From assembly GCF_003851885.1 (NCBI RefSeq), contig NZ_BHZE01000026.1, forward strand, positions 1 through 36,279: a stretch of 36,279 nucleotides of DNA, given 5' to 3'. Shown here one piece after another: positions 8,863 through 22,174 of this stretch. A model generated the notes under the pieces. The model did no database searches and was not told the DNA's origin. It saw only the letters and a program-made list of their open reading frames with translations. The position numbers and the translations under genes were made by a program. Numbering within the stretch: position 1 is the first letter of the stretch; each line of letters begins with the position of its first letter. Source of the DNA: Thermaurantimonas aggregans (GTDB lineage Bacteria; Bacteroidota; Bacteroidia; Flavobacteriales; Schleiferiaceae).

Positions 8863-9435
8863 TTAAAACAATATGGGTAAAATGAGATGTGTCATTAGTA
8901 GGCCGCCGATGAAGAAACCTATAACAGCTACCAGCGAAGGAAGCTGTAGGTTGCTCAATCCGGAAATTGCGTGCCCTGAGGTACAACCTCCCGCATAGCG
9001 CGAACCAAATCCTATCATTAGACCTCCGAGGGCAAGAATCAGGAATCCCTTGATTGTTAAAACATTGCTCCAGTCCATAAGCTCAGAGGGCTGCATACCT
9101 GTAGGAGCTTGAAAGTTCATTTCTGCCAATCGCTCAATGGTTTTTGGTGAGATGTCTACCGGCTCCTCTTGATAACTTAAAAAGTTTTTTGCAACGTAAC
9201 CGCCAATGATCGACCCGGTAAGGAACATCAAATTCCAAGCTTGTGATTTCCAGTCGAAGTCAAAAAATTTCACTTTTTTACCGGCACCAGCAATGGTACA
9301 AATCGTCCTGAGATTAGATGAAAAGCCAAATTGCTTCCCAAAAAACAAGAGGGCAAACATTGTGGCTGCTATCAAACCACCAGAAAACCACCACGGCCAG
9401 GGGCTCATTATAAAGTCAACAAAGCTATTTTTCAT
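8863..9435 (-). CDS. YeeE/YedE family sulfur transporter half, N-terminal-type unit
   Basis: Membrane protein of 190 residues with several hydrophobic helices and the family motif AGGCTSGHAISG (Cys151, His155). A second Cys lies in LRTICTIAG (Cys46). In full-length YeeE these elements sit in one chain; here they are split over two adjacent genes, a common arrangement in Bacteroidota and Proteobacteria. An extramembrane loop of about 40 residues (roughly 85-125) separates the early helices from the CTSGH repeat. The start codon lies within the last codons of the upstream Usp gene (11-nt overlap), indicating translational coupling. Proposed role: import of thiosulfate or other sulfane sulfur compounds across the inner membrane. 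Confidence 0.87.
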   Translation of the reverse strand: MKNSFVDFIMSPWPWWFSGGLIAATMFALLFFGKQFGFSSNLRTICTIAGAGKKVKFFDFDWKSQAWNLMFLTGSIIGGYVAKNFLSYQEEPVDISPKTIERLAEMNFQAPTGMQPSELMDWSNVLTIKGFLILALGGLMIGFGSRYAGGCTSGHAISGLSNLQLPSLVAVIGFFIGGLLMTHLILPILF

Positions 9436-10267
9436 AGAGTCTGAAGGTTATGAAGGGTTTATACATGTGATTTATTAATTTTTCTGCTACGCTTGAGTAA
9501 AAAAGACTTCCTTTTCCATGTGTTCCAAGGCAAATAATATCCATAGAATGCATTTGGTCGAAGTGGAACACCCCATGCTCTACATCTGTATCTTTCAGTA
9601 CATTAATGGAATAATTTTCTAGTTGATTTTCTTTCGCAAAGCTTTCCATTTTTTTCTTTAGCTCTTGTGATTCATGGGTTTTAGAGCGCGATGTCAGAAT
9701 GTGCAGCAAGTGAATTTTACACTGAAAAGCTTCTCTTATGCGCTTCATAAGACTTATGTCAAAATCCTCTTCAGCCAGAAAATCGTGTACAAAGAGTATG
9801 TTTTTGATCTCAAGTTGGCTGCGATCACAACTCAAAGACAGCACTGGTACCTTCGATTTGCGCACTACTAATTGGGTCTCAGTTCCACCTATTTTATCGC
9901 GCAGACCTTCCACGCCTTTGGTACCCATGGCTATTAAATCAAAGCCATTTTTCTCTGCAAAGGAGATGATACCTTCTGTGATTTTTCCGGAGCGAATGTG
10001 TGTATGAATGTTGCCTTCAAGGCGCTTTTTAAGTTCTTCAAATTTTTGAACAGCCAGGTCGTACTGTTTTTGTACAAAGGTTGGCGCAATATCACCACAT
10101 GTTGTAATTTTTCCATTTTCATCAATGCTTACAGATTCCGGTGTATTGAGTATATGAATGAAGTGAATCTCCACCGGAAGTTTTTCTTCCAACTTTTTCA
10201 CCAGAATATAGGCATATTCTGATTGAATGGAAAAGTCGGAAGGAATCAGAATTTTTACTGGTTTCAT
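9425..10267 (-). CDS. Tandem-domain universal stress protein (UspA family)
   Basis: Cytosolic protein of 280 residues with two Usp domains. The first (about 1-145) begins VKILIPSDFS and ends with DLIAMGTKGVEGLRD and VVRKSKVPVLSL. The second (about 150-280) contains LFVHDFLAEED and ends DIICLGTHGKGSLFY. The GTKG and GTHGKGS stretches resemble the nucleotide-binding G-x2-G-x9-G(S/T) loop, so ATP binding is plausible for the second domain. It leads the third sulfur transcription unit, with 170 nt of AT-rich upstream sequence holding palindromes that could be operators. Usp genes often accompany redox or sulfur operons as stress modulators; its precise part here is unknown. Confidence 0.88.
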   Translation of the reverse strand: MKPVKILIPSDFSIQSEYAYILVKKLEEKLPVEIHFIHILNTPESVSIDENGKITTCGDIAPTFVQKQYDLAVQKFEELKKRLEGNIHTHIRSGKITEGIISFAEKNGFDLIAMGTKGVEGLRDKIGGTETQLVVRKSKVPVLSLSCDRSQLEIKNILFVHDFLAEEDFDISLMKRIREAFQCKIHLLHILTSRSKTHESQELKKKMESFAKENQLENYSINVLKDTDVEHGVFHFDQMHSMDIICLGTHGKGSLFYSSVAEKLINHMYKPFITFRLYEK

Positions 10268-10293
10268 TGTTTTGAAAAGTTTTGTTTTTAATT

Positions 10294-10323
10294 GAATTAA
10301 AGTTTAATTCATGCTATTCATGA
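10294..10323. promoter_or_regulatory. Palindromes upstream of the usp-yeeE-tsdA unit
   Basis: GAATTAAAGTTTAATTC (10294-10310) is a perfect 8-1-8 inverted repeat. It is followed directly by TCATGCTATTCATGA (10309-10323), a 5-bp inverted repeat. Both lie 27-57 nt upstream of the Usp start on the minus strand, where an operator would sit. No convincing TAnnTTTG element with correct spacing was found, so the promoter itself is not assigned. AT-richness makes chance palindromes possible. Confidence 0.35.
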
Positions 10324-10440
10324 TTGATTTTGTTTATTAAGCTAAAGTAAAATAGCTATTCAAAACAGTTAATAATTTTTTATCGATTTTAACGTCTAAA
10401 TTTGTTTTATCTAAGCAAAGTATTTTTTTTAACGTATGAC

Positions 10441-10475
10441 AAAAAAGTGCCGGCATTTAGCCGGCTTTTTGTTAT
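10441..10475 (-). terminator. Rho-independent terminator after the secreted rhodanese gene
   Basis: On the minus strand, an A tract precedes GCCGGC, a TAAAT loop and GCCGGC, followed by a T run. The G+C core with flanking A/T tracts could end transcription in both directions. It lies about 32 nt after the rhodanese stop (10507) and separates that unit from the usp-tsdA unit. Confidence 0.8.
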
Positions 10476-10506
10476 TAAACCCCCTAATAAAAGAGCTTTT
10501 TACTTT

Positions 10507-10851
10507 TTACTTCTGGCCCTTAACCTTTCGGTCTACATCGAGCCAGGTTCCACCGTTTGTCACGTTGGTGATTCCGTTTTGTCTCAGTATTTGCTCAGCA
10601 CGTGCACTTCTGGCGCCACTTCTGCAGAAAACTACAATCGGCTTGTCGGTTTTAAATTCATTGATGCGCGCTTGTATTTCGTGCAGTGGAATGTTAATTG
10701 CGCCTTTAGCTGTACCTTCAGCAAATTCTTGTGGTGTGCGTACATCTACAAGAAGTGCTTTGCGATAATCTATTTCACCTTGCTGCTTTTGGCCAAAAGC
10801 AGTTACAACGGCTAATAAGGTGAAAATGGATGCGAAAACAATTTTTTTCAT
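10507..10851 (-). CDS. Exported single-domain rhodanese
   Basis: Periplasmic sulfurtransferase of 114 residues. Residues 1-20 form a signal peptide (MKKIVFASIF... ending AFGQ). The mature part is one rhodanese domain with LLVDVRTPQEFAEG, the active-site loop CRSGARS (Cys76) and a closing GGTWLDV segment. The six-residue CRSGAR loop is the size typical of sulfur-accepting rhodaneses. The start at 10851 is preferred over an in-frame ATG at 10887, because only the shorter form begins with a signal peptide; it leaves 5 nt to the upstream cytosolic rhodanese. The pair look like a duplication with one copy exported. It may receive sulfane sulfur made by the periplasmic enzymes of the island. Confidence 0.9.
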   Translation of the reverse strand: MKKIVFASIFTLLAVVTAFGQKQQGEIDYRKALLVDVRTPQEFAEGTAKGAINIPLHEIQARINEFKTDKPIVVFCRSGARSARAEQILRQNGITNVTNGGTWLDVDRKVKGQK

Positions 10852-10856
10852 CGCAA

Positions 10857-11144
10857 TTAATATTGATTTCTCAACACATCTTGCCATGTACCGGCATTGT
10901 ATACATTTTTAATTCCGTAGCTATTGAGAATTTGCTTAGCCATTTCGCTGCGGTTTCCTGAGCGGCAGAATACTACGATATTTTTTCTGTTTTGAAACTC
11001 AGAAAGGTGGTAAGGAATCTGGTCTACAGGAATGTTGATCGCATTGCGAGCAGAACCTTCCATAAATTCATATGGACTACGTACATCTACCAGAAGGGTG
11101 CCTTCTTGGTTGATGATTTCTTTGAGATTTACTGTCTCTGTCAT
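10857..11144 (-). CDS. Cytosolic single-domain rhodanese
   Basis: Compact 95-residue rhodanese without signal peptide. It has LLVDVRSPYEFMEGSARNAI, the active loop CRSGNRS (Cys60) and a C-terminal AGTW segment. Such proteins accept and pass on sulfane sulfur as a Cys-persulfide. It is closely similar in layout to the exported rhodanese that follows 5 nt downstream, suggesting duplication. The TauE/SafE gene is 13 nt upstream. Likely role: a cytoplasmic persulfide carrier linking sulfur import to the MBL/rhodanese fusion proteins. Confidence 0.92.
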   Translation of the reverse strand: MTETVNLKEIINQEGTLLVDVRSPYEFMEGSARNAINIPVDQIPYHLSEFQNRKNIVVFCRSGNRSEMAKQILNSYGIKNVYNAGTWQDVLRNQY

Positions 11145-11157
11145 TTTTATTAGGAAT

Positions 11158-11958
11158 TTATTTTAATGTTTCTTTTAAAATGATATAAATACCCATTACG
11201 AGTACAAACCAGCCAAAGGCGGGTTTGAGTTTCTTTCCGTCGATCTTTTTCGAAAGAGCGCTACCAATCAGAATACCAACTATAGCCATACCTGATACCA
11301 TCAGAATCAGAGGCCAATTCATGGGTGTTTCACTGCTTTCGCCAAAAAAGCCGATCAACGATTTAGCTGCAATAATTACCAATGAAGTACCTACGGCTTC
11401 TTTCATGGGCAACTTACTAAGCACTACAAGTGCTGGGATGATTAAAAAGCCACCGCCGGCTCCAACCATACCTGTAAGAATGCCAACTACTGTACCTTCA
11501 AGCAGTATGAGGGGATAGTTAAACTCTTGTTTTCCACTTTCACTCTCGCCTGTTTTATTAGGATTTTCCTTCTTAATCATGCTGTACGATGCAGCAATCA
11601 TTAGTACAGCAAAGAGCAGCATGAGTAAAAGACTTTTAGTCACTACAAAATCCCCAATGGCAAATACCTCTTTTGGTATAGCTGGCACAATGTAGGCTCT
11701 TGTAGCGAATACAGCTACGATAGACGGAATGCCAAAAACTATGGCTGTACGAACATTTACCAGTTGATTTTTGAAATAGGTGTACGAACCGATAGCGCTA
11801 GTAAGGCCAACTATGAACAGAGAATATGCAGTGGCTGCAACAGGCTCTACATATAGCAGATATACTAATACTGGTACTGTGAGAATGCTACCACCACCAC
11901 CGATGAGACCAAGAGATACTCCGATGAGTATTGAAGCTATATAGCCTAGAATTTCCAT
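11158..11958 (-). CDS. TauE/SafE family sulfite or sulfur-anion exporter
   Basis: Inner-membrane permease of 266 residues with about eight helices in two homologous halves. Each half carries the family glycine-rich signature (GLIGGGGSILTVPVLVYL near the start and GMVGAGGGFLIIPALVVLS near residue 165). TauE/SafE proteins move sulfite, sulfoacetate or related anions. In an operon that oxidises persulfides to sulfite (MBL-fold dioxygenase 59 nt upstream), export of sulfite or thiosulfate is the natural inference. The hydrophilic loop around residues 130-147 separates the halves. The start at 11958 gives the canonical short N-terminus. Confidence 0.9.
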   Translation of the reverse strand: MEILGYIASILIGVSLGLIGGGGSILTVPVLVYLLYVEPVAATAYSLFIVGLTSAIGSYTYFKNQLVNVRTAIVFGIPSIVAVFATRAYIVPAIPKEVFAIGDFVVTKSLLLMLLFAVLMIAASYSMIKKENPNKTGESESGKQEFNYPLILLEGTVVGILTGMVGAGGGFLIIPALVVLSKLPMKEAVGTSLVIIAAKSLIGFFGESSETPMNWPLILMVSGMAIVGILIGSALSKKIDGKKLKPAFGWFVLVMGIYIILKETLK

Positions 11959-12017
11959 TGTCGTTGTTTGCTAAGGAAAGAAGAGGTAAGGCCACCAGAG
12001 CCTTACCTGAAAATAGA

Positions 12018-13421
12018 TTATTCAGAAACTAACTCCTCGCCGGCAGCAGCCCATTCGTTGATGCCTGGAGAGTAGTTTACGATGTTGTTAAATCCATATT
12101 TAGTGAGCAGTGAGTAGCCAATAGAGGCTCTGTCACCACCTTGGCAGTGGATGATTACTTTTTTGTCTTTACTGATTTTATCGAGATTGTTGGGGAGAGT
12201 TCCCACAAATACGTGGTCAGCACCTTTGATGTGTCCTGACTTGTATTCGCTGGCACCGCGAAGGTCAACAACTTGAATGTTGTTAGCTGAAATAAGTTTC
12301 TTTAATTCTTCTTTTTCCACAAATTCTACGGTTGCCAGTTTTCCTCCGTTCTTAGTGTAAGGGTCAGTAGAATCGATGTAGCCTTTTACATTATCGAGGC
12401 CGATTCGCATGAGCTTGCGAGCGATATCTTCCAGCTGATCTTCAGCAGCTAAGAGCATGAAGGGCTTGTCGTAGTCAAGATACCAACCTGCCCAAGTAGC
12501 TAGGGAGTTGTTGTTTTGAATATTGATGCTACCAGGAATGAAACCTTTGGCGAAATTAACCTTATTACGAGTATCTACCAGAGGAGTACCTTGATTGAAA
12601 GCCTCTATAAACTCACTGTCGCTCAACTTTTTGTACTTTGGCACTTCAGTTACAAGAGCTCTCTCTACTTTGTTGAGCTTCTTCATCATAGCGAAGTAGC
12701 GAGGAGGCTCTGGTTGGTCTGCCAGAAGGTAGCTGATGAAACCTTCTTTATCGTTCATGTAGCGGAAAGCCCAGTTGCGCATTTTTTCATAACCTACGGT
12801 AGAGCTGGGTACAGCACCTAGGGCTTTACCACAGGCTGAACCTGCACCATGGCCAGGCCATACTTGTACGAAGTCGGGAAGAGCAGCAAATTTTTTCAGT
12901 GATTCATACATCTGCTCAGCACCTGCACGTTGTGTGCCTGTTTGACCAGCAGCTTTTTCGAGTAAGTCGGGTCTTCCTACATCACCTACAAACACAAAGT
13001 CGCCAGTGAAAATCATTACAGGTTCAGGGCTGGCAGGGGTATCAGTAAGCAGAAAGCTGATGTGCTCAGGAGTGTGACCTGGTGTATGCATCACTTTGAT
13101 TTTCAGATTACCCACCATAATCTCATCTCCATCTTTGAGCCCTACATGTGGAAATTGATATTGCCAGTCGGCACCACCTTCGTCGCTCAGATAAATTTGA
13201 GCTCCTGTAAGCTGGGCTAATTCACGGCTTCCTGAAAGGAAATCGGCGTGAATGTGTGTTTCGAAGATGTGGGTAATCTTAAACTTATTGGCTTTTGCAA
13301 TCTCGAGATATACATCTACATCCCTACGAGGGTCAATTACTGCAGCAACACCTGCTGCCTGACATCCGATTACGTAGCTTGCTTGTGCTAGAGTTTTATC
13401 GTAAACGTGCTGAAAAAACAT
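12018..13421 (-). CDS. MBL-fold persulfide dioxygenase-like / double rhodanese fusion (copy 1)
   Basis: Protein of 467 residues: an ETHE1-like metallo-beta-lactamase domain (about 1-240) followed by two rhodanese domains (about 265-355 and 370-465). Metal motif THIHAD (His56, His58, Asp60), then HTPGHTPEH, FTGDFVFVGDVGRPDLL and WPGHGAGS, all as in persulfide dioxygenases, which oxidise glutathione or other low-molecular-weight persulfide to sulfite using Fe(II). The first rhodanese has LLAAEDQLE in place of the catalytic Cys loop and looks inactive; the second has HCQGGDRAS (Cys426). It leads a unit with tauE and two rhodaneses. A paralogue lies directly upstream, separated by a terminator. 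The persulfide-dioxygenase assignment is family-based. Confidence 0.88.
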   Translation of the reverse strand: MFFQHVYDKTLAQASYVIGCQAAGVAAVIDPRRDVDVYLEIAKANKFKITHIFETHIHADFLSGSRELAQLTGAQIYLSDEGGADWQYQFPHVGLKDGDEIMVGNLKIKVMHTPGHTPEHISFLLTDTPASPEPVMIFTGDFVFVGDVGRPDLLEKAAGQTGTQRAGAEQMYESLKKFAALPDFVQVWPGHGAGSACGKALGAVPSSTVGYEKMRNWAFRYMNDKEGFISYLLADQPEPPRYFAMMKKLNKVERALVTEVPKYKKLSDSEFIEAFNQGTPLVDTRNKVNFAKGFIPGSINIQNNNSLATWAGWYLDYDKPFMLLAAEDQLEDIARKLMRIGLDNVKGYIDSTDPYTKNGGKLATVEFVEKEELKKLISANNIQVVDLRGASEYKSGHIKGADHVFVGTLPNNLDKISKDKKVIIHCQGGDRASIGYSLLTKYGFNNIVNYSPGINEWAAAGEELVSE

Positions 13422-13501
13422 AGTTCTCTTTGTTTTTAAATTTCTTTTGCAAATGTCAGGCTGATTTTAATCATGTTTTTGGTACTTATGTTACAAAAGA
13501 A

Positions 13502-13532
13502 AAAACCACCTGCACTTTTAGCAAGTGGTTTT
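13502..13532 (-). terminator. Rho-independent terminator after MBL/rhodanese copy 2
   Basis: Inverted repeat AAAACCAC (13502-13509) and GTGGTTTT (13525-13532), extended by TGC/GCA after one mismatch, with a 7-nt loop. On the minus strand it is followed by TTTTTTCTTTT-like sequence. It lies 25 nt after the stop of the 13557-14978 gene, so that gene is probably transcribed alone. Confidence 0.85.
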
Positions 13533-13556
13533 ATTATGTGTATGTAAATCAGTTAA

Positions 13557-14978
13557 TTATAACTCAGTAGTTGGGCAAACATAATCTGTTACGCGGAACT
13601 TTCCGGTCTCTTTCATTGCCTTGAAACCACCGATTACATTCACCAGTTTATCGTAGCCGCGGCTTTTTAGAATTGAAATAAACGCCATGGAACGATAGCC
13701 GCCGGCACAGTGCACGTAGTACTTCTTTTCGGGGTTGAGCAGCTTCATGCTATCGTTGATGTAGTCGAGCGGAGCTACCATGGCCTCTACTACGTGCTCG
13801 CTGTTGTATTCGCTGTTTTTGCGCACATCTACTATGTTGATGTCTTCTTTAGCATAAAGTTCAGCGAGTTCTTCAGCGGTCACTTGTTCAACGGTGTCGA
13901 TTTCAAAACCTGCGTTCTTCCAAGCTTCAATACCGCCTTTTAGATAGCCAACTACATTGTCAAAACCAACGCGAGCCAAGCGAGTAATAGCCTCTTCTTC
14001 GCGGCCTTGGTCGCATACGAGCAGCAGAGGTGTAGTGACATCTGGAATGAGTGTACCCACCCAAATAGCAAAGCTGCCGTCGAGACCGATGTTGATAGAG
14101 TTGGGGACGTGTCCCTTAGCAAAATCGTCGGCACTGCGCGTATCCAGAATAACAGGCCGCGTTTCAGTGGCTACTATTTCAAACTCCTTGGGATCAAGTG
14201 CTCTTTTGGCCTTTTCAAAAACATTGTCAATAGACTCGTAGCCTTTCACATTCATCAAAACGTTGGCCGGGAAGTAACCTGGAGGGGGTGTAAGACCTTC
14301 GAGCAGTTTGGCGATAAACTGCTCACGTGTAAGTTTGGGATCGAGTGCGTAATTGGTTTTCTTTTGATTGCCAAGTGTATCGGATGTCTCTTTGCTCATC
14401 TTCTTTCCGCAAGGGCTACCAGCCCCGTGAGCCGGATATACTATCAAATGATCAGGAAGGGGAAGAATTTTTTTATGAATGGAGTCGTAAAGATGTGAGG
14501 CTAACTTCTCCGGAGTAAGATCTTCTACCACTTTTTGAGCAAGATCCGGACGACCTACATCACCGATGAAAAGGGTATCGCCAGTAAAAAGTGCTGTTTC
14601 TTTTCCATTTTCATCGATAAGCAGGTAGCAGCTGCTCTCCATGGTATGACCTGGTGTGTGAATAAGGCGAATTTTGACTTTTCCGAGTTGAAATTCCTCA
14701 CCATCCTTGGCAATGTAGGCGTCGTAACCAGGTTCAATCAATACCGGACCAAGAACGATTTTCGCTCCGGTTTTTTTGCTTAGATCAACGTGGCCTGAAA
14801 CGAAATCAGCATGATAATGTGTTTCAAACACATATTTAATACGTGCTCCCGACTTGGAAGCTCTTTCGATGTAAGGATGTACCTCCCGAAGAGGGTCTAT
14901 GACGGCGGCCTCTCCTTCACTTTCGATGTAATATGCACCTTGGGCAAGGCATCCTGTATAAATCTGTTCTACTACCAT
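13557..14978 (-). CDS. MBL-fold persulfide dioxygenase-like / double rhodanese fusion (copy 2)
   Basis: Protein of 473 residues with the same architecture as the neighbouring 467-residue paralogue: an MBL-fold domain with THYHAD (His54, His56, Asp58), HTPGHT (His107), FTGDTLFIGDVGRPDLA and YPAHGAGSPCGK, then two rhodanese domains. Here both rhodaneses keep a candidate nucleophile: CDQGREEEA (Cys322) in the first and HCAGGYRS (Cys424) in the second, with an extra Cys in the C-terminal VCPTTEL tail. It can therefore both oxidise a persulfide and relay sulfur through two sites. A terminator follows, so it forms a single-gene unit diverging from the MerR regulator gene. An inverted repeat in the upstream region may be its operator. 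Confidence 0.88.
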   Translation of the reverse strand: MVVEQIYTGCLAQGAYYIESEGEAAVIDPLREVHPYIERASKSGARIKYVFETHYHADFVSGHVDLSKKTGAKIVLGPVLIEPGYDAYIAKDGEEFQLGKVKIRLIHTPGHTMESSCYLLIDENGKETALFTGDTLFIGDVGRPDLAQKVVEDLTPEKLASHLYDSIHKKILPLPDHLIVYPAHGAGSPCGKKMSKETSDTLGNQKKTNYALDPKLTREQFIAKLLEGLTPPPGYFPANVLMNVKGYESIDNVFEKAKRALDPKEFEIVATETRPVILDTRSADDFAKGHVPNSINIGLDGSFAIWVGTLIPDVTTPLLLVCDQGREEEAITRLARVGFDNVVGYLKGGIEAWKNAGFEIDTVEQVTAEELAELYAKEDINIVDVRKNSEYNSEHVVEAMVAPLDYINDSMKLLNPEKKYYVHCAGGYRSMAFISILKSRGYDKLVNVIGGFKAMKETGKFRVTDYVCPTTEL

Positions 14979-15168: not shown

Positions 15169-15212
15169 TTGTTTAATATAAGTGTGTTTAAAATTAAACA
15201 CTACTACTTTTG
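15169..15212 (+). promoter_or_regulatory. Promoter and candidate operators of the MerR regulator gene
   Basis: TACTTTTG (15205-15212) matches the -7 consensus TAnnTTTG. The perfect inverted repeat TGTTTAAAATTAAACA (15185-15200) covers the place of the -33 element, and another TTGTTTAA half-site lies at 15169-15176. The same half-sites recur at the sigma-factor promoter. The arrangement suggests that the MerR protein represses its own gene; this is inference. Confidence 0.55.
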
Positions 15213-15238
15213 TCGGATTAATGCGTGTAGTTTGTTAA

Positions 15239-16126
15239 ATGACCAATCGATACTCCATTAAAGATTTAGAGCAATTATCAGGAATTAAAGCCCATACTAT
15301 TCGTATTTGGGAGCAGCGATACAAACTGATTACTCCCAAAAGGACTGAAACAAATATTCGCTATTACCTCGATAGCGATCTGAAAAAGCTACTCAATATC
15401 AGTGTTTTAATAAAAAAGGGTATTAAGATCAGCAAAATATCACAGCTTAGCAATGAAGAAATTCAAGCCTTAGTGCTTGAATACTCACGCTACAGAGGTG
15501 AATACGAAGCCCAAATCAATGGCCTTAAAATGGCCATGATCGACTTTGATGTGGAGTATTTCGAAAAAATCCTCGGCCAGTGCTTCTTTACCTTCGGCCC
15601 AGATGTAACCTTTACCCAAATCCTTGGCAAATTCATTGCTGAAATAGGTATTTTATGGCAAACCAACTCTATTTCCATTGCTCATGAGCACTTTATTTCA
15701 AATCTGATCAAGCAAAAACTCTTTGCAGCAATCGATCAAATGATCGTTACACCGAAACCTGACACCGAACCCATTGTATTATACTTACCTGATAATGAAC
15801 TTCATGAGCTCAGCTTGCTCTACATATATTATACATTGAAGAAAAAAGGCTACCGGGTACTTTATCTCGGGCAATCAGTACCGGCTGAAAACCTTAAAGA
15901 ACTTTTTGATAAAACCGGTAGACGCCTTTTTATATCCATTTTTACCTCAAATCCTTTTTCAGAAGAAGTCGAAGACTACATAAAAAAGCTGGATGAATTG
16001 TTTGGTGAAAACGACTGCTGGTTCCATTTTACTGGTTATCAAGTGCAAAATGTTACCGATCTGAATTTCAATAAGGAACGTTTTCACATCCATCCGTCCG
16101 TAGAGTCAATCTGCGATTCTTTTTAA
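15239..16126 (+). CDS. MerR-family regulator with B12-binding-like domain (CarH/LitR type)
   Basis: Transcription regulator of 295 residues. A MerR winged-helix domain (residues 4-70, with AHTIRIWEQRY and NIRYYL) is joined to a cobalamin-binding-like region. The helical cap keeps the CarH-type W-x9-EH motif (Trp140, Glu150, His151). The Rossmann-like part carries ELHELS (Glu187, His189, Ser192), close to the cobalamin signature E/DxHxxG but with Ser for the final Gly. In Myxococcus, Thermus and Streptomyces such proteins repress carotenoid genes in the dark and release DNA when adenosylcobalamin is photolysed. The downstream ECF sigma factor and crt genes fit that role exactly. Whether this copy still binds B12 needs testing. 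Confidence 0.88.
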   Translation: MTNRYSIKDLEQLSGIKAHTIRIWEQRYKLITPKRTETNIRYYLDSDLKKLLNISVLIKKGIKISKISQLSNEEIQALVLEYSRYRGEYEAQINGLKMAMIDFDVEYFEKILGQCFFTFGPDVTFTQILGKFIAEIGILWQTNSISIAHEHFISNLIKQKLFAAIDQMIVTPKPDTEPIVLYLPDNELHELSLLYIYYTLKKKGYRVLYLGQSVPAENLKELFDKTGRRLFISIFTSNPFSEEVEDYIKKLDELFGENDCWFHFTGYQVQNVTDLNFNKERFHIHPSVESICDSF

Positions 16127-16374
16127 TTAGTCATTCGTTACAAATTTTCTGTCTTTGAGCAAGTCATCTGTGCAGGTTTAGTACTGATGGCAGAATAATA
16201 TAGGTTAATCGTTTAAAAATTATTATAAATGTACCTACATGTAAATAATTATTATGTTAATTGTCAAATAAATACATTTTTTGTTTAAGTAATAGCAAAA
16301 AAAATTAAACAAAACACTTGCATGTATCGATTCTTTGTTTAACTTTGTAGCATAAAATATTAAACAAACATGCT
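16127..16374 (+). promoter_or_regulatory. Promoter and paired operators of the ECF-sigma/carotenoid/pterin operon
   Basis: TTG (16318-16320), 19 nt, then TAACTTTG (16340-16347) is a complete Bacteroidota promoter; transcription would start near 16353, about 22 nt before the ATG. Two TTGTTTAA...TTAAACAA pairs surround it: 16281-16288 with 16305-16312, and 16335-16342 with 16360-16367. The second pair overlaps the -7 box and the start point, ideal for repression by a dimeric MerR protein. Distance between half-sites is 24 and 25 nt start to start. The first half of this spacer (16127-16270) is AT-rich and shows nothing else. Confidence 0.65.
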
Positions 16375-16878
16375 ATGTCAACTCTTGAGTTTACCAATCT
16401 GATATCGTCTCATCGCTCCTTCCTGCACCAGCTGGCTATGAAACTTACAAAAGACATCGATGATGCCAAAGATTTGATTCAGGAGACCTTTTTTAAAGCG
16501 ATCAAAAATAAGGACAAGTATGAAGAGGGCACCAATATCAAGGGTTGGCTCTATACGATTATGAAAAATACTTTTATAAATCAGTATCGAAAAAAGAAAT
16601 TTCAGAATACTTTTATTGACGAAACGGACAATAAGTTCTTTATCAGTCAATCACCCCGCGATAAAGAGGTGTATTCTGATAAAAACTTAGACATGGAATA
16701 TTTAATGAAGCGAATAGAAGACATTGATCGAGTATATTTAGAGACATTTATGATGTACTACAACGGATACAAATACGAAGAAATTGCCGAGATCATGAAC
16801 ATACCTTTGGGTACAGTAAAAAGCAGAATATTTCTGGCAAGGAAGAAGATGATGGAGCGCTTAAAAGATTATCGATAA
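16375..16878 (+). CDS. ECF-family RNA polymerase sigma factor
   Basis: Extracytoplasmic-function sigma factor of 167 residues: region 2 with AKDLIQETFFKAIKNKDKY and NIKGWLYTIMKNTFINQYRK (-10 recognition), and region 4 with YEEIAEIMNIPLGTVKSRIFLARKKM (helix-turn-helix). No anti-sigma gene is adjacent; control seems to come from the MerR-type repressor whose candidate operators overlap this promoter. The arrangement parallels LitR-LitS of Streptomyces, where a light-responsive MerR protein controls an ECF sigma that turns on carotenoid genes. crtI begins 24 nt downstream, so sigma and enzymes are probably one transcript, giving a positive loop if the sigma recognises its own promoter. Confidence 0.92.
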   Translation: MSTLEFTNLISSHRSFLHQLAMKLTKDIDDAKDLIQETFFKAIKNKDKYEEGTNIKGWLYTIMKNTFINQYRKKKFQNTFIDETDNKFFISQSPRDKEVYSDKNLDMEYLMKRIEDIDRVYLETFMMYYNGYKYEEIAEIMNIPLGTVKSRIFLARKKMMERLKDYR

Positions 16879-16902: not shown

Positions 16903-18381
16903 ATGAAAGACAAAGCAGTTGTAATAGGAAGTGGTTTCGCAGGGCTATCGGCGGCCATCTCTTTGGCACACAAAGGGTATGAGGTTACTCTTTTAGAAAA
17001 AAACGACATGCCAGGGGGCAGAGCCCGACAGTGGGTGAAAGATGGATTTATCTTTGATTTAGGTCCTTCTTGGTATTGGATGCCCGATGTATTTGAAGCT
17101 TTTTTTTCAAAATTTGGCAAAAAAGTATCTGATTATTACGAATTATATCGATTAGATCCCGCTTACAAAGTCTTTTTTAAAGACGATGAAGTGGAAGTGC
17201 CGGCTGACCTCACCAAGCTCAAAAGTTGGATGGAACGCCGAGAGCCTGGTAGTGCTGCCAAGCTCGACAAATTTCTCAAAGAAGCAGCTTACAAATATGA
17301 AGTGGGCATCAATGACTTAGTGTACAGACCAGGTCGAAGCATTTTTGAATTTGCTGATTGGCGAGTCTTAACCGGACTTTTGAAGATGGATCTTCTCACC
17401 AACATCAGCAAGCACATTCGAAGCTACTTCAGCGATCCTTACATCATTCAGCTTCTCGAATTTCCTGTCCTTTTTTTGGGTGAAAGAGCCTGGAAAACCC
17501 CTGCTCTTTATTCTTTAATGAATTATGCGGACCTTGTGCTTGGCACCTGGTATCCTAAAGGAGGTATGTACTCTGTGGTGAAGGCACTCGTATCATTGGC
17601 TGAGGAAAAGGGTGTGACCATCCTTTACAATCAGGAGGTTAAATCTTTTGAAATAGCCCATAATCAAATCAAAGCAGTACTTACTGAAAACTACAGATAC
17701 GAAGCAGATGTAGTAATAGCTGGTGCAGATTACCACCATGTAGACCAACAGCTGTTGCCCGAAAAATATCGCAACTACTCGGAAAGGTACTGGCAAACCC
17801 GAAAAATGGCACCTAGCAGCTTGTTGTTTTACTTAGGCGTGAACAAGCGCATCGAAGGATTGCCCCACCATACGCTTTTTTTTGACAGAGACTTTGCCCT
17901 GCATGCTGAGGAAATTTACGGCAAACCTCAATGGCCCACAGAGCCCCTATTTTACATATCTGTAACCTCAAAAACAGAAAAAACTGCTCCAGAAAGTTGT
18001 GAGAATTTAACGATCTTAATACCTCTTGCGCCAGGCTTGGAAGACAGTGAACAGATGCGCGAAAAGTACTATCATGTAGTGATGGATCGATTGGAAAAGC
18101 GCATCGGTCAGGAAATAAGACCACACGTTGTGGTTAAGCGTTCCTATGCGATGAATGACTTCGTTAAAGATTATCACGCATTTAAAGGAAATGCGTATGG
18201 ATTAGCCAATACTTTGCTACAAACAGCTATTTTAAAACCCTCGCTGAAAAATAAAAAATTGCACAATCTTTACTACACCGGTCAACTCACTGTGCCAGGG
18301 CCAGGTGTACCTCCCTCACTCATATCCGGATGGGTGGTGGCTAATGAAGTGGTGAAGGATATGAATTACTCAACTGTTTAA
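16903..18381 (+). CDS. crtI: Phytoene desaturase CrtI
   Basis: FAD-dependent carotenoid desaturase of 492 residues that introduces double bonds into phytoene, giving neurosporene or lycopene. The N-terminus has the dinucleotide-binding GSGFAGLSAAISLAHKG and LLEKNDMPGGRA. The C-terminus has the CrtI signature GQLTVPGPGVPPSLISG followed by WVVANEVV. Length matches bacterial CrtI (about 490-510). It begins 24 nt after the sigma gene and is followed after 25 nt by crtB. A CrtD-like or ketolase-type paralogue is less likely, because it is paired with the only phytoene synthase seen. No cyclase or hydroxylase lies in this window, so the end product is not defined here. Confidence 0.95.
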   Translation: MKDKAVVIGSGFAGLSAAISLAHKGYEVTLLEKNDMPGGRARQWVKDGFIFDLGPSWYWMPDVFEAFFSKFGKKVSDYYELYRLDPAYKVFFKDDEVEVPADLTKLKSWMERREPGSAAKLDKFLKEAAYKYEVGINDLVYRPGRSIFEFADWRVLTGLLKMDLLTNISKHIRSYFSDPYIIQLLEFPVLFLGERAWKTPALYSLMNYADLVLGTWYPKGGMYSVVKALVSLAEEKGVTILYNQEVKSFEIAHNQIKAVLTENYRYEADVVIAGADYHHVDQQLLPEKYRNYSERYWQTRKMAPSSLLFYLGVNKRIEGLPHHTLFFDRDFALHAEEIYGKPQWPTEPLFYISVTSKTEKTAPESCENLTILIPLAPGLEDSEQMREKYYHVVMDRLEKRIGQEIRPHVVVKRSYAMNDFVKDYHAFKGNAYGLANTLLQTAILKPSLKNKKLHNLYYTGQLTVPGPGVPPSLISGWVVANEVVKDMNYSTV

Positions 18382-18406: not shown

Positions 18407-19243
18407 ATGAAAGAACTATTTGATAAAGTAGCTTTTAAGACCAGTAAGATGGTCACGCGAAAATATTCTACCTCGTTTTCATTGGGAATTTATTTTCTCG
18501 ACAAAAAATTTCACGATGCTATATATGCGATTTATGGCTTTGTGCGCTTTGCCGATGAAATTGTGGATACTTTTCACGATTACGACAAAGAGTCGCTGCT
18601 ACTGAGATTTAAAGAAGATACCTATCGCGCCATTCAGGAGGGCATAAGCCTCAATCCGGTGCTTCACAGTTTCCAAAAAGTGGTCAATCAGTACAACATA
18701 GACCTCGACTTGATCGAAACATTTCTCCAAAGTATGGAAATGGATCTCTACAAGCATACCTATACTAAAAAACAGTACGAACGTTATATACTGGGTTCGG
18801 CCGAAGTGGTAGGGCTAATGTGTCTAAAGGTTTTTGTAGAGGGCGATCAGAAAGCGTATGAGGAGTTGAAATATTATGCCATGAAGCTTGGCAGCGCTTT
18901 TCAGAAAATCAACTTCTTGCGCGACTTAAATGCTGACTACTTTCAGCTCGGCAGAGTGTACTTCCCGGGCGTAGATATGAGCCAATTTGACTACGAAACT
19001 AAGCAAGCTATAGAAAAAGACATCGAAATCGACTTTGCTCTTGGCTTTGAAGGCATTAGAAGACTACCTAAGTCGAGCAGACTGGGAGTATATGTTGCTT
19101 ACGTATACTACTACCAGCTTTTTCAAAGAATTAAAAACTTACCTCCTGCTGAAATTCTCAACAAAAGAATTCGCATACCGAATAACAAAAAAATCCGTTT
19201 GCTCTTTAAATCATACATTAAACACGCTCTTAATCTCTTGTAA
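18407..19243 (+). CDS. crtB: Phytoene synthase CrtB
   Basis: Squalene/phytoene synthase family enzyme of 278 residues joining two geranylgeranyl diphosphates into phytoene. Both Asp-rich Mg-diphosphate motifs are present: ADEIVD (Asp50, Asp54) and RDLNAD (Asp172, Asp176) followed by GRVYFPG. The N-terminal TRKYSTSFSLGIYFL also fits. Slightly short compared with proteobacterial CrtB but usual for Bacteroidota. crtI precedes it by 25 nt and idi follows after 3 nt. Confidence 0.95.
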   Translation: MKELFDKVAFKTSKMVTRKYSTSFSLGIYFLDKKFHDAIYAIYGFVRFADEIVDTFHDYDKESLLLRFKEDTYRAIQEGISLNPVLHSFQKVVNQYNIDLDLIETFLQSMEMDLYKHTYTKKQYERYILGSAEVVGLMCLKVFVEGDQKAYEELKYYAMKLGSAFQKINFLRDLNADYFQLGRVYFPGVDMSQFDYETKQAIEKDIEIDFALGFEGIRRLPKSSRLGVYVAYVYYYQLFQRIKNLPPAEILNKRIRIPNNKKIRLLFKSYIKHALNLL

Positions 19244-19246
19244 ATC

Positions 19247-19762
19247 ATGATTGAACACGTTATCCTGGTCGATGCTCACGACCGTGAGCTAGGACTGATG
19301 GAGAAGATGGAAGCACACCAAAAAGGCCTGTTACATCGAGCTTTCAGTGTCTTTGTGCTCAACGACAAAAAAGAACTACTCCTACAACGCAGGGCATTTG
19401 ACAAATACCACAGTGGAGGCCTATGGACAAATACGTGTTGCAGCCATCCGCGCAAAGATGAAGATGTGGAAGCCGCAGCGCATCGACGTCTAAAGGAAGA
19501 AATGGGCTTCGACTGCGAACTTGAGAAGGTGCTGGACTTCGTCTATCGGGCTGATTTCTCCGATGGGCTTACCGAGCACGAATTTGACCACGTATTTGTG
19601 GGGTATTACAATGGAAGTCCCCAAATCAATACCCAAGAGGTAGCTGAATACAAGTGGATGCCACTCGATGAGGTAAAACGCGATCTACAGGAAAATCCGG
19701 ATAACTACACCGAGTGGTTTAAAATCATTTTCGACCGTTTTTACTCTCATGTAAAAAATTGA
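19247..19762 (+). CDS. idi: Isopentenyl-diphosphate delta-isomerase, type I
   Basis: Nudix-fold isomerase of 171 residues converting IPP to DMAPP, the starter for isoprenoid chains. Catalytic Cys65 lies in WTNTCCSHP and the catalytic Glu pair in LTEHEFDHV (Glu110, Glu112). The Nudix helix AAAHRRLKEEMGFD is present. Metal-binding His residues are at His24/His30 (EAHQKGLLHRAFS) and His67. The gene starts 3 nt after crtB and ends 1 nt before the PTPS-like gene, so it belongs to the same transcript. Its presence here points to raised isoprenoid precursor supply when carotenoids are made. Confidence 0.95.
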   Translation: MIEHVILVDAHDRELGLMEKMEAHQKGLLHRAFSVFVLNDKKELLLQRRAFDKYHSGGLWTNTCCSHPRKDEDVEAAAHRRLKEEMGFDCELEKVLDFVYRADFSDGLTEHEFDHVFVGYYNGSPQINTQEVAEYKWMPLDEVKRDLQENPDNYTEWFKIIFDRFYSHVKN

Positions 19763-19763
19763 T

Positions 19764-20183
19764 ATGAAGCTGGTTACAGTGTCGAGGCATGCGCACTTCA
19801 ATGCTGCGCACAGGCTTCATAACCCTAGCTGGAACGCCGAACAAAACGAAAAAGTGTTTGGGCTCTGCAACAACGAATATTTTCACGGGCATAACTATGA
19901 GCTGATTGTAAGTGTGACAGGACCGGTTGATCCGGATACTGGTTATGTGATGGATATGAAAGAATTATCGGATCTGATCAAAAAACATGTAGAAGCTCGA
20001 TTAGACCACAAAAATCTCAATTTACAAGTCGAAGAATTCAAGCATCTTATTCCTTCGGCTGAAAATATAGCAATCGTCATTTATGATTGGTTGCGCCCAC
20101 ACATTTCACCCAGTTTAAAACTCAAAATTACCCTTTATGAAACGCCAAGAAATTATGTTGAATACTCAGGAGAAGAAGCGTAA
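19764..20183 (+). CDS. 6-pyruvoyl-tetrahydropterin synthase / QueD-family enzyme
   Basis: Zinc-dependent enzyme of 139 residues acting on dihydroneopterin triphosphate, the product of FolE. Zinc ligands: His16 (NAAHRL) and His41/His43 (HGHNYE). Catalytic Cys35 stands six residues before the HGH, a C-x5-HGHNY layout like eukaryotic-type PTPS (CNNPNGHGHNY) and unlike the C-x3-HGH of E. coli QueD. LDHKNLN (Asp81, His82) and YETPRNYVEY (Glu126) complete the active site. Placed between idi and folE, and followed by an SDR, it fits biopterin-like cofactor synthesis better than queuosine, though the 6-carboxy-pterin reaction cannot be excluded from sequence. Confidence 0.87.
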   Translation: MKLVTVSRHAHFNAAHRLHNPSWNAEQNEKVFGLCNNEYFHGHNYELIVSVTGPVDPDTGYVMDMKELSDLIKKHVEARLDHKNLNLQVEEFKHLIPSAENIAIVIYDWLRPHISPSLKLKITLYETPRNYVEYSGEEA

Positions 20184-20880
20184 TGGCGTACCCCATTTGA
20201 ATGGAAATACGGCTCACGCACTGCATATACACGATGATGATACTTGCTGCGACGATCACGTGTGCACTGGCAAGGAAACTCCCCTAAGGCCTGACGCCTT
20301 TGAACTGACAGATGATGAGAAGATTGAGTCAATAGCCGAAAAATTTGCCGATATCCTTCATATACTTGGTCTTGATTTGGATGACGATAGTTTAAAGGAT
20401 ACACCGCGAAGAGTGGCAAAAATGTATGTAAAGGAGATTTTTTCGGGTTTGCATCCGGCACGTAAACCATCTGTTCAGCTCTTCGACAATCCTTACCAGT
20501 ACAATCAGATGCTGGTAGAAAAAAACATCACTGTGCATTCTTACTGCGAACACCATTTGGTGCCCATCATAGGAGTAGCTCACGTAGCCTACATCAGCAG
20601 TGGCAAGGTCATCGGCTTGAGTAAAATCAACAGAATCGTTCGCTATTTTTCTAAAAGACCACAAGTGCAAGAACGGCTTACAGAGCAAATTGCCGAGGAG
20701 CTTAAAAAGGTCTTACAAACCGAAGATGTAGCAGTTTACATTGATGCCGAACACTTTTGTGTAAAGACACGTGGGATAGAAGATACCCAAAGCACAACTG
20801 TGACTACCCACTATAGCGGAAAGTTTCTCACAGATAATCAAGTTCGTCAGGAGTTTCTTTCAATCATCTCAAAGAAATGA
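20137..20880 (+). CDS. folE: GTP cyclohydrolase I FolE with Cys/His-rich N-terminal extension
   Basis: Converts GTP to 7,8-dihydroneopterin triphosphate, the first step of pterin synthesis. Zinc ligands Cys137 and His140 lie in HSYCEHHLVPI and Cys208 in HFCVKTRGI, as in type IA enzymes. It has 247 residues if started at 20137, overlapping the PTPS gene by 47 nt; the next in-frame ATG (20155) would give 241. Either way the first 50 residues hold HALHIHDDDTCCDDHVC (His28, 30, 32, 41; Cys37, 38, 43), which I do not know from ordinary FolE. Metal sensing or delivery is possible, by inference. The SDR starts in its stop codon (ATGA). Placement in the carotenoid operon suggests co-induction by light. 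Confidence 0.92.
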   Translation: MKRQEIMLNTQEKKRNGVPHLNGNTAHALHIHDDDTCCDDHVCTGKETPLRPDAFELTDDEKIESIAEKFADILHILGLDLDDDSLKDTPRRVAKMYVKEIFSGLHPARKPSVQLFDNPYQYNQMLVEKNITVHSYCEHHLVPIIGVAHVAYISSGKVIGLSKINRIVRYFSKRPQVQERLTEQIAEELKKVLQTEDVAVYIDAEHFCVKTRGIEDTQSTTVTTHYSGKFLTDNQVRQEFLSIISKK

Positions 20881-21563
20881 AAAATATTCTTGTGATAGGA
20901 GCCTCCTCAGGTATTGGAAAGTATGTGGCTGAGTCGCTTGTGAAAAGTGGAAACAACGTGTATGCAGCCCAGCGGAGAAGTGCAGAAATACCCGGTGTGA
21001 AAAACATTCCTTACGATGTAACAAGCCAAACTCCTATTTCACCACTTCCTGATGTTCTGGATGGACTTGTATACTGCCCCGGCACCATCAATCTGAAACC
21101 TTTTAATCGAATTTCGGACACTGAACTCAGAGAAGAGTTTGAGATCAATTTTTTTGGAGCATTCCGCATACTTCAAGCATGTCTTCCCGCTTTGAAAAAA
21201 AGCGCTCAGGCGTCAGTTGTGTTCTTCAGCACTGTAGCTGTACAAACCGGAATGCCTTTTCATGCCGGTATAGCCTCGGCTAAGGGAGCTATTGAAGGGC
21301 TTACAAGAAGCTTAGCAGCAGAATTGGCTCCCAGTATTCGCGTTAATGCGATTGCCCCCAGTTTAACCGACACTCCCCTTGCCAATAAATTGCTGAACAC
21401 TGACGCCAAACAAGAATCCGCTCGTCAGCGACACCCACTCAAGCGCTATGGATCCACAGAAGATGTAGGCAATGCTGTACTCTGGCTTCTATCCGATCAA
21501 AGCTCGTGGGTAACCGGCCAAATACTGCACATCGACGGTGGTATGAGTTCGCTAAAAGTATGA
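20877..21563 (+). CDS. SDR-family oxidoreductase lacking the catalytic Tyr
   Basis: Short-chain dehydrogenase/reductase fold of 228 residues. Cofactor motif GASSGIG (8-14), structural NFFGAFR (Asn91), a Ser/Thr pair at 118-119, Lys136 in ASAKGAIEG, and the C-terminal GQILHIDGG. The usual Tyr of YxxxK is replaced: the sequence reads HAGIASAK, with Ile132 at the Tyr position and His129 three residues before it. Being fused into a PTPS-folE run by ATGA overlaps at both ends suggests a pteridine reductase (sepiapterin-reductase-like) or dihydropterin reductase role, but the altered active site means chemistry is uncertain. Length and motifs otherwise are normal for classical SDRs. Confidence 0.88.
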   Translation: MKNILVIGASSGIGKYVAESLVKSGNNVYAAQRRSAEIPGVKNIPYDVTSQTPISPLPDVLDGLVYCPGTINLKPFNRISDTELREEFEINFFGAFRILQACLPALKKSAQASVVFFSTVAVQTGMPFHAGIASAKGAIEGLTRSLAAELAPSIRVNAIAPSLTDTPLANKLLNTDAKQESARQRHPLKRYGSTEDVGNAVLWLLSDQSSWVTGQILHIDGGMSSLKV

Positions 21564-22174
21564 AAACACTCTCCAATTATTTAAAAGACGAGGACAGGCA
21601 CTTTAGAATCAACTTTTTTAACACGCTCTCTGGAGTGCGTTCGGTGTGGATGGTCGGTACGCAGAGTAAAGCAGGGGTGAAAAATTTGGGCCTTTTTAAT
21701 TCTTTAGTCCATATTGGAGCTAATCCGCCATTGTTAGGCCTGATTTTTAGGCCACATTCCGTTCCGCGCCATACACTTGAAAATATCAATGAGAGTGGGC
21801 TCTACACGCTGAATTCCGTTACTTCAGAGCTGATGCATCTAGCCCACCGCACAGCCGAGAAATTCGAAGCTCACGAAGATGAATTCGAACTTCTGGGTTT
21901 TACGCCTTGGTATTTCGGTAGTTACCCAAACGTGCCGGCAGTAGCTGAGAGTCCATTGAAAATACTGCTTCGATATGTCGAGAAACATTTGATTGCCGCA
22001 AATCAAACGCAATTACTGGTAGGTGAGGTCATCGATGTGCACATAAAAGTCGATGCTGCCGTGCAAAGTGACGGCAGCATCGATCACCAGATATTGGGAC
22101 ATTTGGCTGTAAGTGGATTAAACGACTATTATGCTTTGTCTCACTTGCTCAGCATGAGTCGATCAGATGATTAG
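21560..22174 (+). CDS. Flavin-reductase-like FMN-binding split-barrel protein
   Basis: Protein of 204 residues with the split-barrel flavin-reductase-like pattern: NFFNTLSGVRSVWMVGT, then NLGLFNSLVHIGANPPLLGLIFRP, and later VGEVIDVHI (the conserved 'lGeV' strand). Such proteins bind FMN and reduce flavin or a substrate with NAD(P)H. The start at 21560 overlaps the SDR stop codon (ATGA); an earlier in-frame ATG (21506) would overlap the SDR by 58 nt and begin with non-family residues. It closes the light-linked operon, and its stop codon directly abuts that of the convergent beta-barrel gene. Substrate is unknown; a role in recycling the pterin or serving a flavin photoreceptor is speculation. 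Confidence 0.82.
   Translation: MKTLSNYLKDEDRHFRINFFNTLSGVRSVWMVGTQSKAGVKNLGLFNSLVHIGANPPLLGLIFRPHSVPRHTLENINESGLYTLNSVTSELMHLAHRTAEKFEAHEDEFELLGFTPWYFGSYPNVPAVAESPLKILLRYVEKHLIAANQTQLLVGEVIDVHIKVDAAVQSDGSIDHQILGHLAVSGLNDYYALSHLLSMSRSDD

Follow-up and report, generated by a model that had tools for sequence, protein, structure and literature searches.

The B12-dependent light-sensor protein of pigmented Bacteroidota probably recognizes a mirror-image DNA address of 32 to 33 letters. In the window, by which we mean the whole analyzed stretch of 36,279 nucleotides from Thermaurantimonas aggregans, sequence comparison indicates that the functional unit is an inverted pair of half-sites, TTGTTTAA-N16/17-TTAAACAA, and not the single octamer. 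The operator, its conservation, its covariation with the regulator, the set of target genes, the CarH fold, and the AdoCbl-binding residues were computed, and we consider it very likely that the operator is read by the CarH/LitR-type regulator encoded at 15239 to 16126, which would act as an AdoCbl-dependent repressor in the dark and be released by light. A broader picture is held more tentatively, at somewhat below an even chance: a B12-photoreceptor regulon across the class Bacteroidia would directly gate rhodopsin phototrophy as well as carotenoids, retinal synthesis, photolyase, and possibly carotenoid-binding FAS1 lipoproteins; the CarH-type protein would read helically phased, wide inverted-repeat pairs and not direct repeats; and in one branch a one-base change in the code would have carried the whole regulon with it.

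Paired half-sites in the window

The preliminary description had counted seven half-sites over the promoters of the merR gene and the ECF sigma factor gene, and all seven are present, five of them exact copies of TTGTTTAA or TTAAACAA (at 15169, 16281, 16305, 16335, and 16360) and two with one mismatch (GTGTTTAA at 15184 and TTAAACAC at 15194). The two pairs at the sigma gene have the start-to-start spacings of 24 and 25 that had been claimed for them. The distal sigma operator is an exact TTGTTTAA-N16-TTAAACAA at 16281 to 16312, just upstream of the -33 element, and the proximal one is an exact TTGTTTAA-N17-TTAAACAA at 16335 to 16367, overlapping the -7 box and the predicted transcription start.

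The half-sites at merR had been read as a 16-bp palindrome. A palindrome does exist there, with a length of 18 bp (GTGTTTAAAATTAAACAC, 15184 to 15201, formed by the half-sites at 15184 to 15191 and 15194 to 15201), but it was rejected as a functional unit because it is not conserved: the nearest relative (locus L005) carries CTGTTTAA-N16-TTAAACAA at an equal distance from the merR start codon, and the middle half-site is missing there. By this comparison, the conserved unit at merR is TTGTTTAA at 15169 with TTAAACAC at 15194 (N17, one mismatch), an operator spanning 15169 to 15201 that was identified in the genome scan and has its counterpart at the matching position (-71) in L005. The extra plus-strand half-site GTGTTTAA (15184 to 15191), which is absent from L005, is probably incidental.

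The single octamer shows no enrichment in the window, with 6 occurrences versus 3.95 expected and 27 of 100 shuffles reaching 6, which is what chance octamers in AT-rich spacers would look like. This explanation has practically no probability left and is already refuted by the fixed spacing and by the 82 inverted pairs counted over 148 genomes of the order, versus 5 in the backwards control orientation.

Exact pairs with gaps of 14 to 19 number three in the whole 2.67-Mb genome, versus one for the control; two of the three are those at the sigma promoter, and the remaining one precedes a rhodopsin gene. Two-mismatch pairs show no excess over the control in this genome (10 versus 7 at N16 and 5 versus 9 at N17), so the proof of the operator rests on comparative data.

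Conservation of the operator in related genomes

In 83 of the 110 retrieved loci that encode a homologue of the regulator, a sigma or crtI gene follows closely. Allowing up to two mismatches, the pair occurs in 80 of these 83 merR-to-target spacers, compared with a mean of 0.7 and a maximum of 2 in shuffled sequences, the counts from related genomes' sequences being non-independent. When gaps from 2 to 40 were scanned, the exact pairs in these spacers had a gap of 16 at 44 loci, of 17 at 8 loci, and of 29 at a single locus. Pooling the distinct exact operators, 134 at N16 and 29 at N17, gives a symmetric logo, which for the N16 form reads tTTTGTTTAA...tt......aa...TTAAACAAAa. The pair is commoner at these promoters than in shuffles, and the claim that the motif is the DNA target of this B12-type MerR group in Bacteroidota withstands the comparison of frequencies across relatives and is strongly supported by the spacer counts together with the co-occurrence and covariation described below. 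In a phylum-wide sample, nearly all operator matches fall within one class, the Bacteroidia.

An operator common to the merR and sigma promoters, as originally suggested, is present in the window and in roughly half of the family's members, 10 of 20 merR upstream regions having the pair when up to two mismatches are allowed; over all loci, a site at the merR promoter is recognizable in 29 of 110.

Co-occurrence and covariation of regulator and operator

Exact pairs were found in 36 of the 44 genomes of the order with a close CarH-like MerR protein, compared with 3 of the 104 others (148 genomes in all, p = 4e-23), and the three exceptional sites lie inside an open reading frame or more than 500 bp from any gene start. 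No exact pair was found in eight genomes that do have a close MerR protein, including G021 and G082, and binding of the pair by the MerR protein is itself a prediction; another regulator, encoded elsewhere, might bind the pair, with the MerR gene merely nearby. We regard this as very improbable, as the pair co-occurs with the regulator and stands at the merR promoter itself, the half-site fits the TnnACA of CarH, G021 and G082 have pairs with one or two mismatches at these promoters, and a one-base change in the operator accompanies a change in the recognition helix.

The latter change is seen with a diverged regulator, present in 23 further genomes (E-values 1e-33 to 1e-42, 33 to 38% identity), in which the recognition helix GIKAHTIRxWEQRY is replaced by ..K.vLRTWENRY. 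The TTGTTTAA pair was not found in these 23 genomes. The regions around the diverged regulator genes contain TTGTATA-N18-TATACAA, with 27 TGTATA-core sites in 20 loci, a variant operator that retains the 24-bp spacing and differs from the main one by one base per half-site. Genome-wide, it is present in 21 of the 23 diverged-regulator genomes versus 2 of the 44 main-type genomes, and it is also found in 14 genomes for which no full-length regulator was detected, several of them incomplete and from the families of the diverged group. Written as TnnACA, the half-site is TAAACA in the main group, TATACA in the diverged group, and TGTACA in Pseudomonas LitR (PMC9758184). At the level of sequence, the covariation of recognition helix and operator ties the regulator to the operator and is, in our view, the strongest evidence for ownership. 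The one-base shift after the change in the helix also provides a natural experiment in DNA recognition by a photoreceptor family. Five extra TGTATA pairs with a gap of 26 were observed in the diverged group.

The regulator

The regulator gene (15239 to 16126, plus strand) encodes a CarH/LitR-type protein with a MerR helix-turn-helix domain (Pfam ID PF13411), a B12-binding_2 domain (Pfam ID PF02607), and a Rossmann-like half; these domains and the fold matches show the combination of MerR helix-turn-helix and B12-binding fold that characterizes the CarH/LitR family. The AlphaFold model has a pLDDT of 90.6, and its top Foldseek matches in the PDB are Thermus thermophilus CarH structures (PDB IDs 5c8e and 5c8d); this protein is the nearest solved relative by sequence as well as by predicted structure. 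The identity to CarH is low, and the NCBIfam CarH equivalog model (NF052513) gives the regulator 94 bits versus a cutoff of 400, so we do not name it CarH in the narrow sense.

The motif W140-x9-E150H151 is present, with W140, E150, and H151 being invariant in 38 homologues, and Wx9EH, which forms the cap over the adenosyl group, is kept in 106 of 110 homologues. The ExHxxG motif with the lower-ligand histidine takes the form E187-L-H189-E-L-S; this histidine is kept among the homologues, where the last position of the motif is G, S, or A, and [ED]xHxx[GSA] is found in 100 of 110. The AdoCbl residues W140, E150, H151, and H189 are thereby all retained. The residue after the tryptophan of Wx9EH is a glutamine in this regulator and in most of the homologues listed. 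In T. thermophilus CarH, H132, which adjoins W131, is the light-state cobalt ligand; because it is replaced by glutamine here, the photochemistry may differ. Judged by these residues and domains, the regulator is most likely an AdoCbl photoreceptor repressor of the CarH/LitR type whose operator architecture is new.

Seven genomes contain MerR proteins of about 200 to 235 residues with no Rossmann half, which match only the first 160 to 174 residues of the regulator; some of these genomes also have a full-length one.

Promoter geometry and proposed mechanism

The sigma promoter of the preliminary description, a plus-strand TTG (16318 to 16320) followed after N19 by TAACTTTG (16340 to 16347), matches exactly and is bracketed and overlapped by the two pairs, the -7 box being embedded in the proximal operator. 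A putative -7 element of the form TAnnTTTG is also present on the plus strand upstream of merR (TACTTTTG, 15205 to 15212). This motif has been mapped in Flavobacterium psychrophilum as the -7 consensus of sigma-A (PMC9723704). The box lies at the equivalent place in 31 of 72 proximal operators of relatives, most of them with a TTG at 18 to 20 bp, and N19 is the commonest TTG-to-TA spacing, seen 17 times among these 31.

Two operators are found at 56 of the 83 relatives' promoters, with a center-to-center distance of 43 to 46, 52 to 56, or 62 to 64.5 bp and one exception at 36 bp. The three distance classes are about one helical turn apart and track lineages, a pattern that is suggestive, though not proof, of cooperative binding along one face of the double helix.

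A classical MerR operator is a short dyad between the -35 and -10 elements, with a spacer of 19 to 20 bp. The dyad in the window is of a different kind, spanning 32 to 33 bp and lying either across the -7 box or ahead of -33. The location of the proximal operator over the -7 box and start site is, as far as placement can tell, a repressor's position, and from this overlap we infer repression.

In the mechanism that we propose, the winged-helix domains of the regulator would bind both outer half-sites of the 32- to 33-bp inverted repeat (T)TTGTTTAA-N16/17-TTAAACAA(A), whose half-site core TAAACA corresponds to the TnnACA of CarH. In the dark, the AdoCbl-bound regulator would be assembled and sit on the merR promoter and on the two sigma-promoter operators, the proximal one covering the -7 box and start site and the distal one lying just upstream of -33, and together they would shut the promoter. 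Light would break the Co-C bond, the assembly would fall apart, and the sigma-crtI-crtB-idi-pterin-SDR-flavin reductase run would then be transcribed; the rhodopsin gene, located elsewhere, would answer the same light signal. Binding, dependence on AdoCbl and light, and the oligomer state are, along with repression, what we infer in this scheme.

It is possible but unlikely that the MerR protein binds the operator and mainly activates, or that its signal is B12 or redox status and not light. Activators are frequent among MerR proteins, the distal operator is placed ahead of -33, LitR is described as promoting litS transcription upon light in Streptomyces (PMC12705666), and both the G/S/A variation in the ExHxxG motif and the glutamine in place of H132 would be in keeping with such a role. 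However, the proximal operator occupies a repressing position, the targets form a light-related set, and Wx9EH and the lower-ligand histidine are kept in most homologues, all of which favors the light-released repressor.

The 16- to 17-bp spacing of the pair also resembles a promoter spacer, and the sigma gene and the operator often occur together, so that the pair might be taken for the -35 and -10 elements of an ECF sigma promoter and not for a regulator site. Yet the dyad symmetry is perfect, the site overlaps the -7 box of the primary sigma factor, and Flavobacteriaceae-type genomes have several operators without the sigma ortholog, containing only unrelated ECF paralogs of about 30% identity. 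As the operators persist in genomes without that sigma, the ECF promoter reading was rejected and carries a negligible probability.

Target genes

The operon downstream of merR starts with the ECF sigma factor gene (16375 to 16878, plus strand), an ortholog of which adjoins merR in most operator-carrying relatives. On the same strand follow the genes for a crtI/D phytoene desaturase (16903 to 18381; NF058655 above cutoff), a crtB-type phytoene synthase (18407 to 19243; Pfam ID PF00494), and the isopentenyl-diphosphate isomerase idi (19247 to 19762; NF002995 above cutoff), and then, assigned by sequence, a 6-pyruvoyl-tetrahydropterin synthase-like gene (19764 to 20183), a GTP cyclohydrolase I folE-like gene (20137 to 20880, the true start of which may be downstream of 20137), and a short-chain dehydrogenase gene (20877 to 21563). 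A flavin-reductase-like gene (21524 to 22174; Pfam ID PF01613) is the last of the co-directional run. Genes joined in this operon bear separate operators in other lineages, the pterin synthase-like gene in another genome, folE elsewhere, and the dehydrogenase and flavin reductase genes in relatives, and such a distribution of predicted sites is what a true regulon looks like. Divergent to merR, a sulfur-handling gene run on the minus strand (8863 to 14978) comprises MBL-rhodanese fusions, rhodanese proteins, and membrane transport-like proteins; no separate operator was found for this run.

Among 114 distinct exact operators, fetched irrespective of gene, 96 precede a coherent light-related set, a figure that measures coherence and is not an independent prediction, since the reference set was partly drawn from the operators' own neighbors. 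The most frequent targets are the ECF sigma (34), FAS1 lipoproteins (20), crtI (9), and rhodopsin (6, of which one is divergent with a retinal-forming BCD enzyme and one with a lycopene cyclase), and further ones are photolyase, SDR, SRPBCC, DUF2452, TetR, folE, pterin synthase, and flavin reductase genes. The target set is far wider than the one initially proposed, merR and the sigma gene. The independent test of targets started from rhodopsin: an operator with at most two mismatches lies within 300 bp upstream of 26 of 57 rhodopsin genes of the class, compared with 0.1 in shuffles. The rhodopsin gene of T. aggregans itself (Pfam ID PF01036; L002 1721 to 2476) has an exact operator at -220 (L002 1501 to 1533, C4:101914) and a second one with two mismatches that ends just before the start codon (L002 1687 to 1719, C4:102100).

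A one-mismatch pair was also seen about 40 bp before a YceI-like gene of the same genome (L114 1501 to 1532, C3:145919), and this gene, with its polyisoprenoid-binding fold, is possibly a further regulon member.

The FAS1 (fasciclin) lipoproteins were unexpected as the second commonest target, and a FAS1 gene is divergent to the regulator gene in the diverged group as well. FAS1 domains of the algal protein AstaP bind carotenoids (PMC10147662). The bacterial FAS1 protein is detectably similar to AstaP, yet its similarity to other FAS1 proteins is greater, and carotenoid binding is therefore only a guess. As a frequent target, the FAS1 lipoprotein offers a lead for a light-response protein.

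Comparison with known systems

Control of carotenoids by CarH/LitR and the pairing with an ECF sigma in Streptomyces are already known. Our search of open-access papers turned up no earlier description of an operator in Bacteroidota, of rhodopsin being controlled by CarH, or of FAS1 genes as targets; a search for exact TTGTTTAA/TTAAACAA gave nothing relevant among the top-ranked matches, and no light-versus-dark Bacteroidota transcriptomes usable against the target list were found in the open-access literature. The predicted regulon would reveal a class-wide set of light-response genes that was not found described in the literature searched, where the light switching of carotenoids and rhodopsin in Bacteroidota is likewise unexplained. 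A defined operator allows candidate targets to be picked out in a genome sequence and gives a 33-bp probe on which to assay the regulator. Some Bacteroidota of this kind must import vitamin B12, and, if our reading is true, this vitamin would gate light harvesting in a group of bacteria that is abundant in aquatic habitats.

MliR of Bizionia was considered as the same protein and set aside: the passages on it describe a MerR-like regulator of iron homeostasis that has a coiled coil, and they mention no B12 domain (PMC9478572).

CarH of T. thermophilus and Bacillus megaterium shares with the regulator the MerR domain and B12-binding half, the Wx9EH motif, the lower-ligand histidine, and the TnnACA type of half-site core; the T. 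thermophilus protein is also the best structural match. The operators of these CarH proteins consist of three or four tandem 11-bp direct repeats (PMC8156234, PMC9304148), unlike the inverted repeat with 24- or 25-bp spacing found here, usually twice per sigma promoter. The direct-repeat type was rejected for this group, as TnnACA at +11 or -11 bp of the conserved TnnACA occurs in only 1 and 2 of 268 strands.

The class II LitR proteins PplR1 and PmlR2 of Pseudomonas also use paired TnnACA-type half-sites and two sites per promoter, theirs lying over -35 and near the start, with a spacing of TGTACA-N12-TGTACA versus TGTTTA-N18/19-TAAACA here, and PmlR2 is controlled by a LOV protein (PMC9758184). 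CarA/CarH of Myxococcus and Cystobacter bind cooperatively to a long operator with an inverted repeat that overlaps promoter elements (PMC8156234, PMC9304148), resembling the operator predicted here, but the design and sequence of that operator differ, and the repressed operon is not headed by an ECF sigma gene.

In the LitR-LitS system of Streptomyces, a B12-type MerR protein is likewise paired with an ECF sigma gene and carotenoids, with the control described there (PMC12705666) being predicted here. Sigma-LitS transcribes a separate crtE promoter, whereas the sigma gene here heads the crtI operon, and, unlike in LitR-LitS, the operator is also found directly at crtI in lineages without the sigma.
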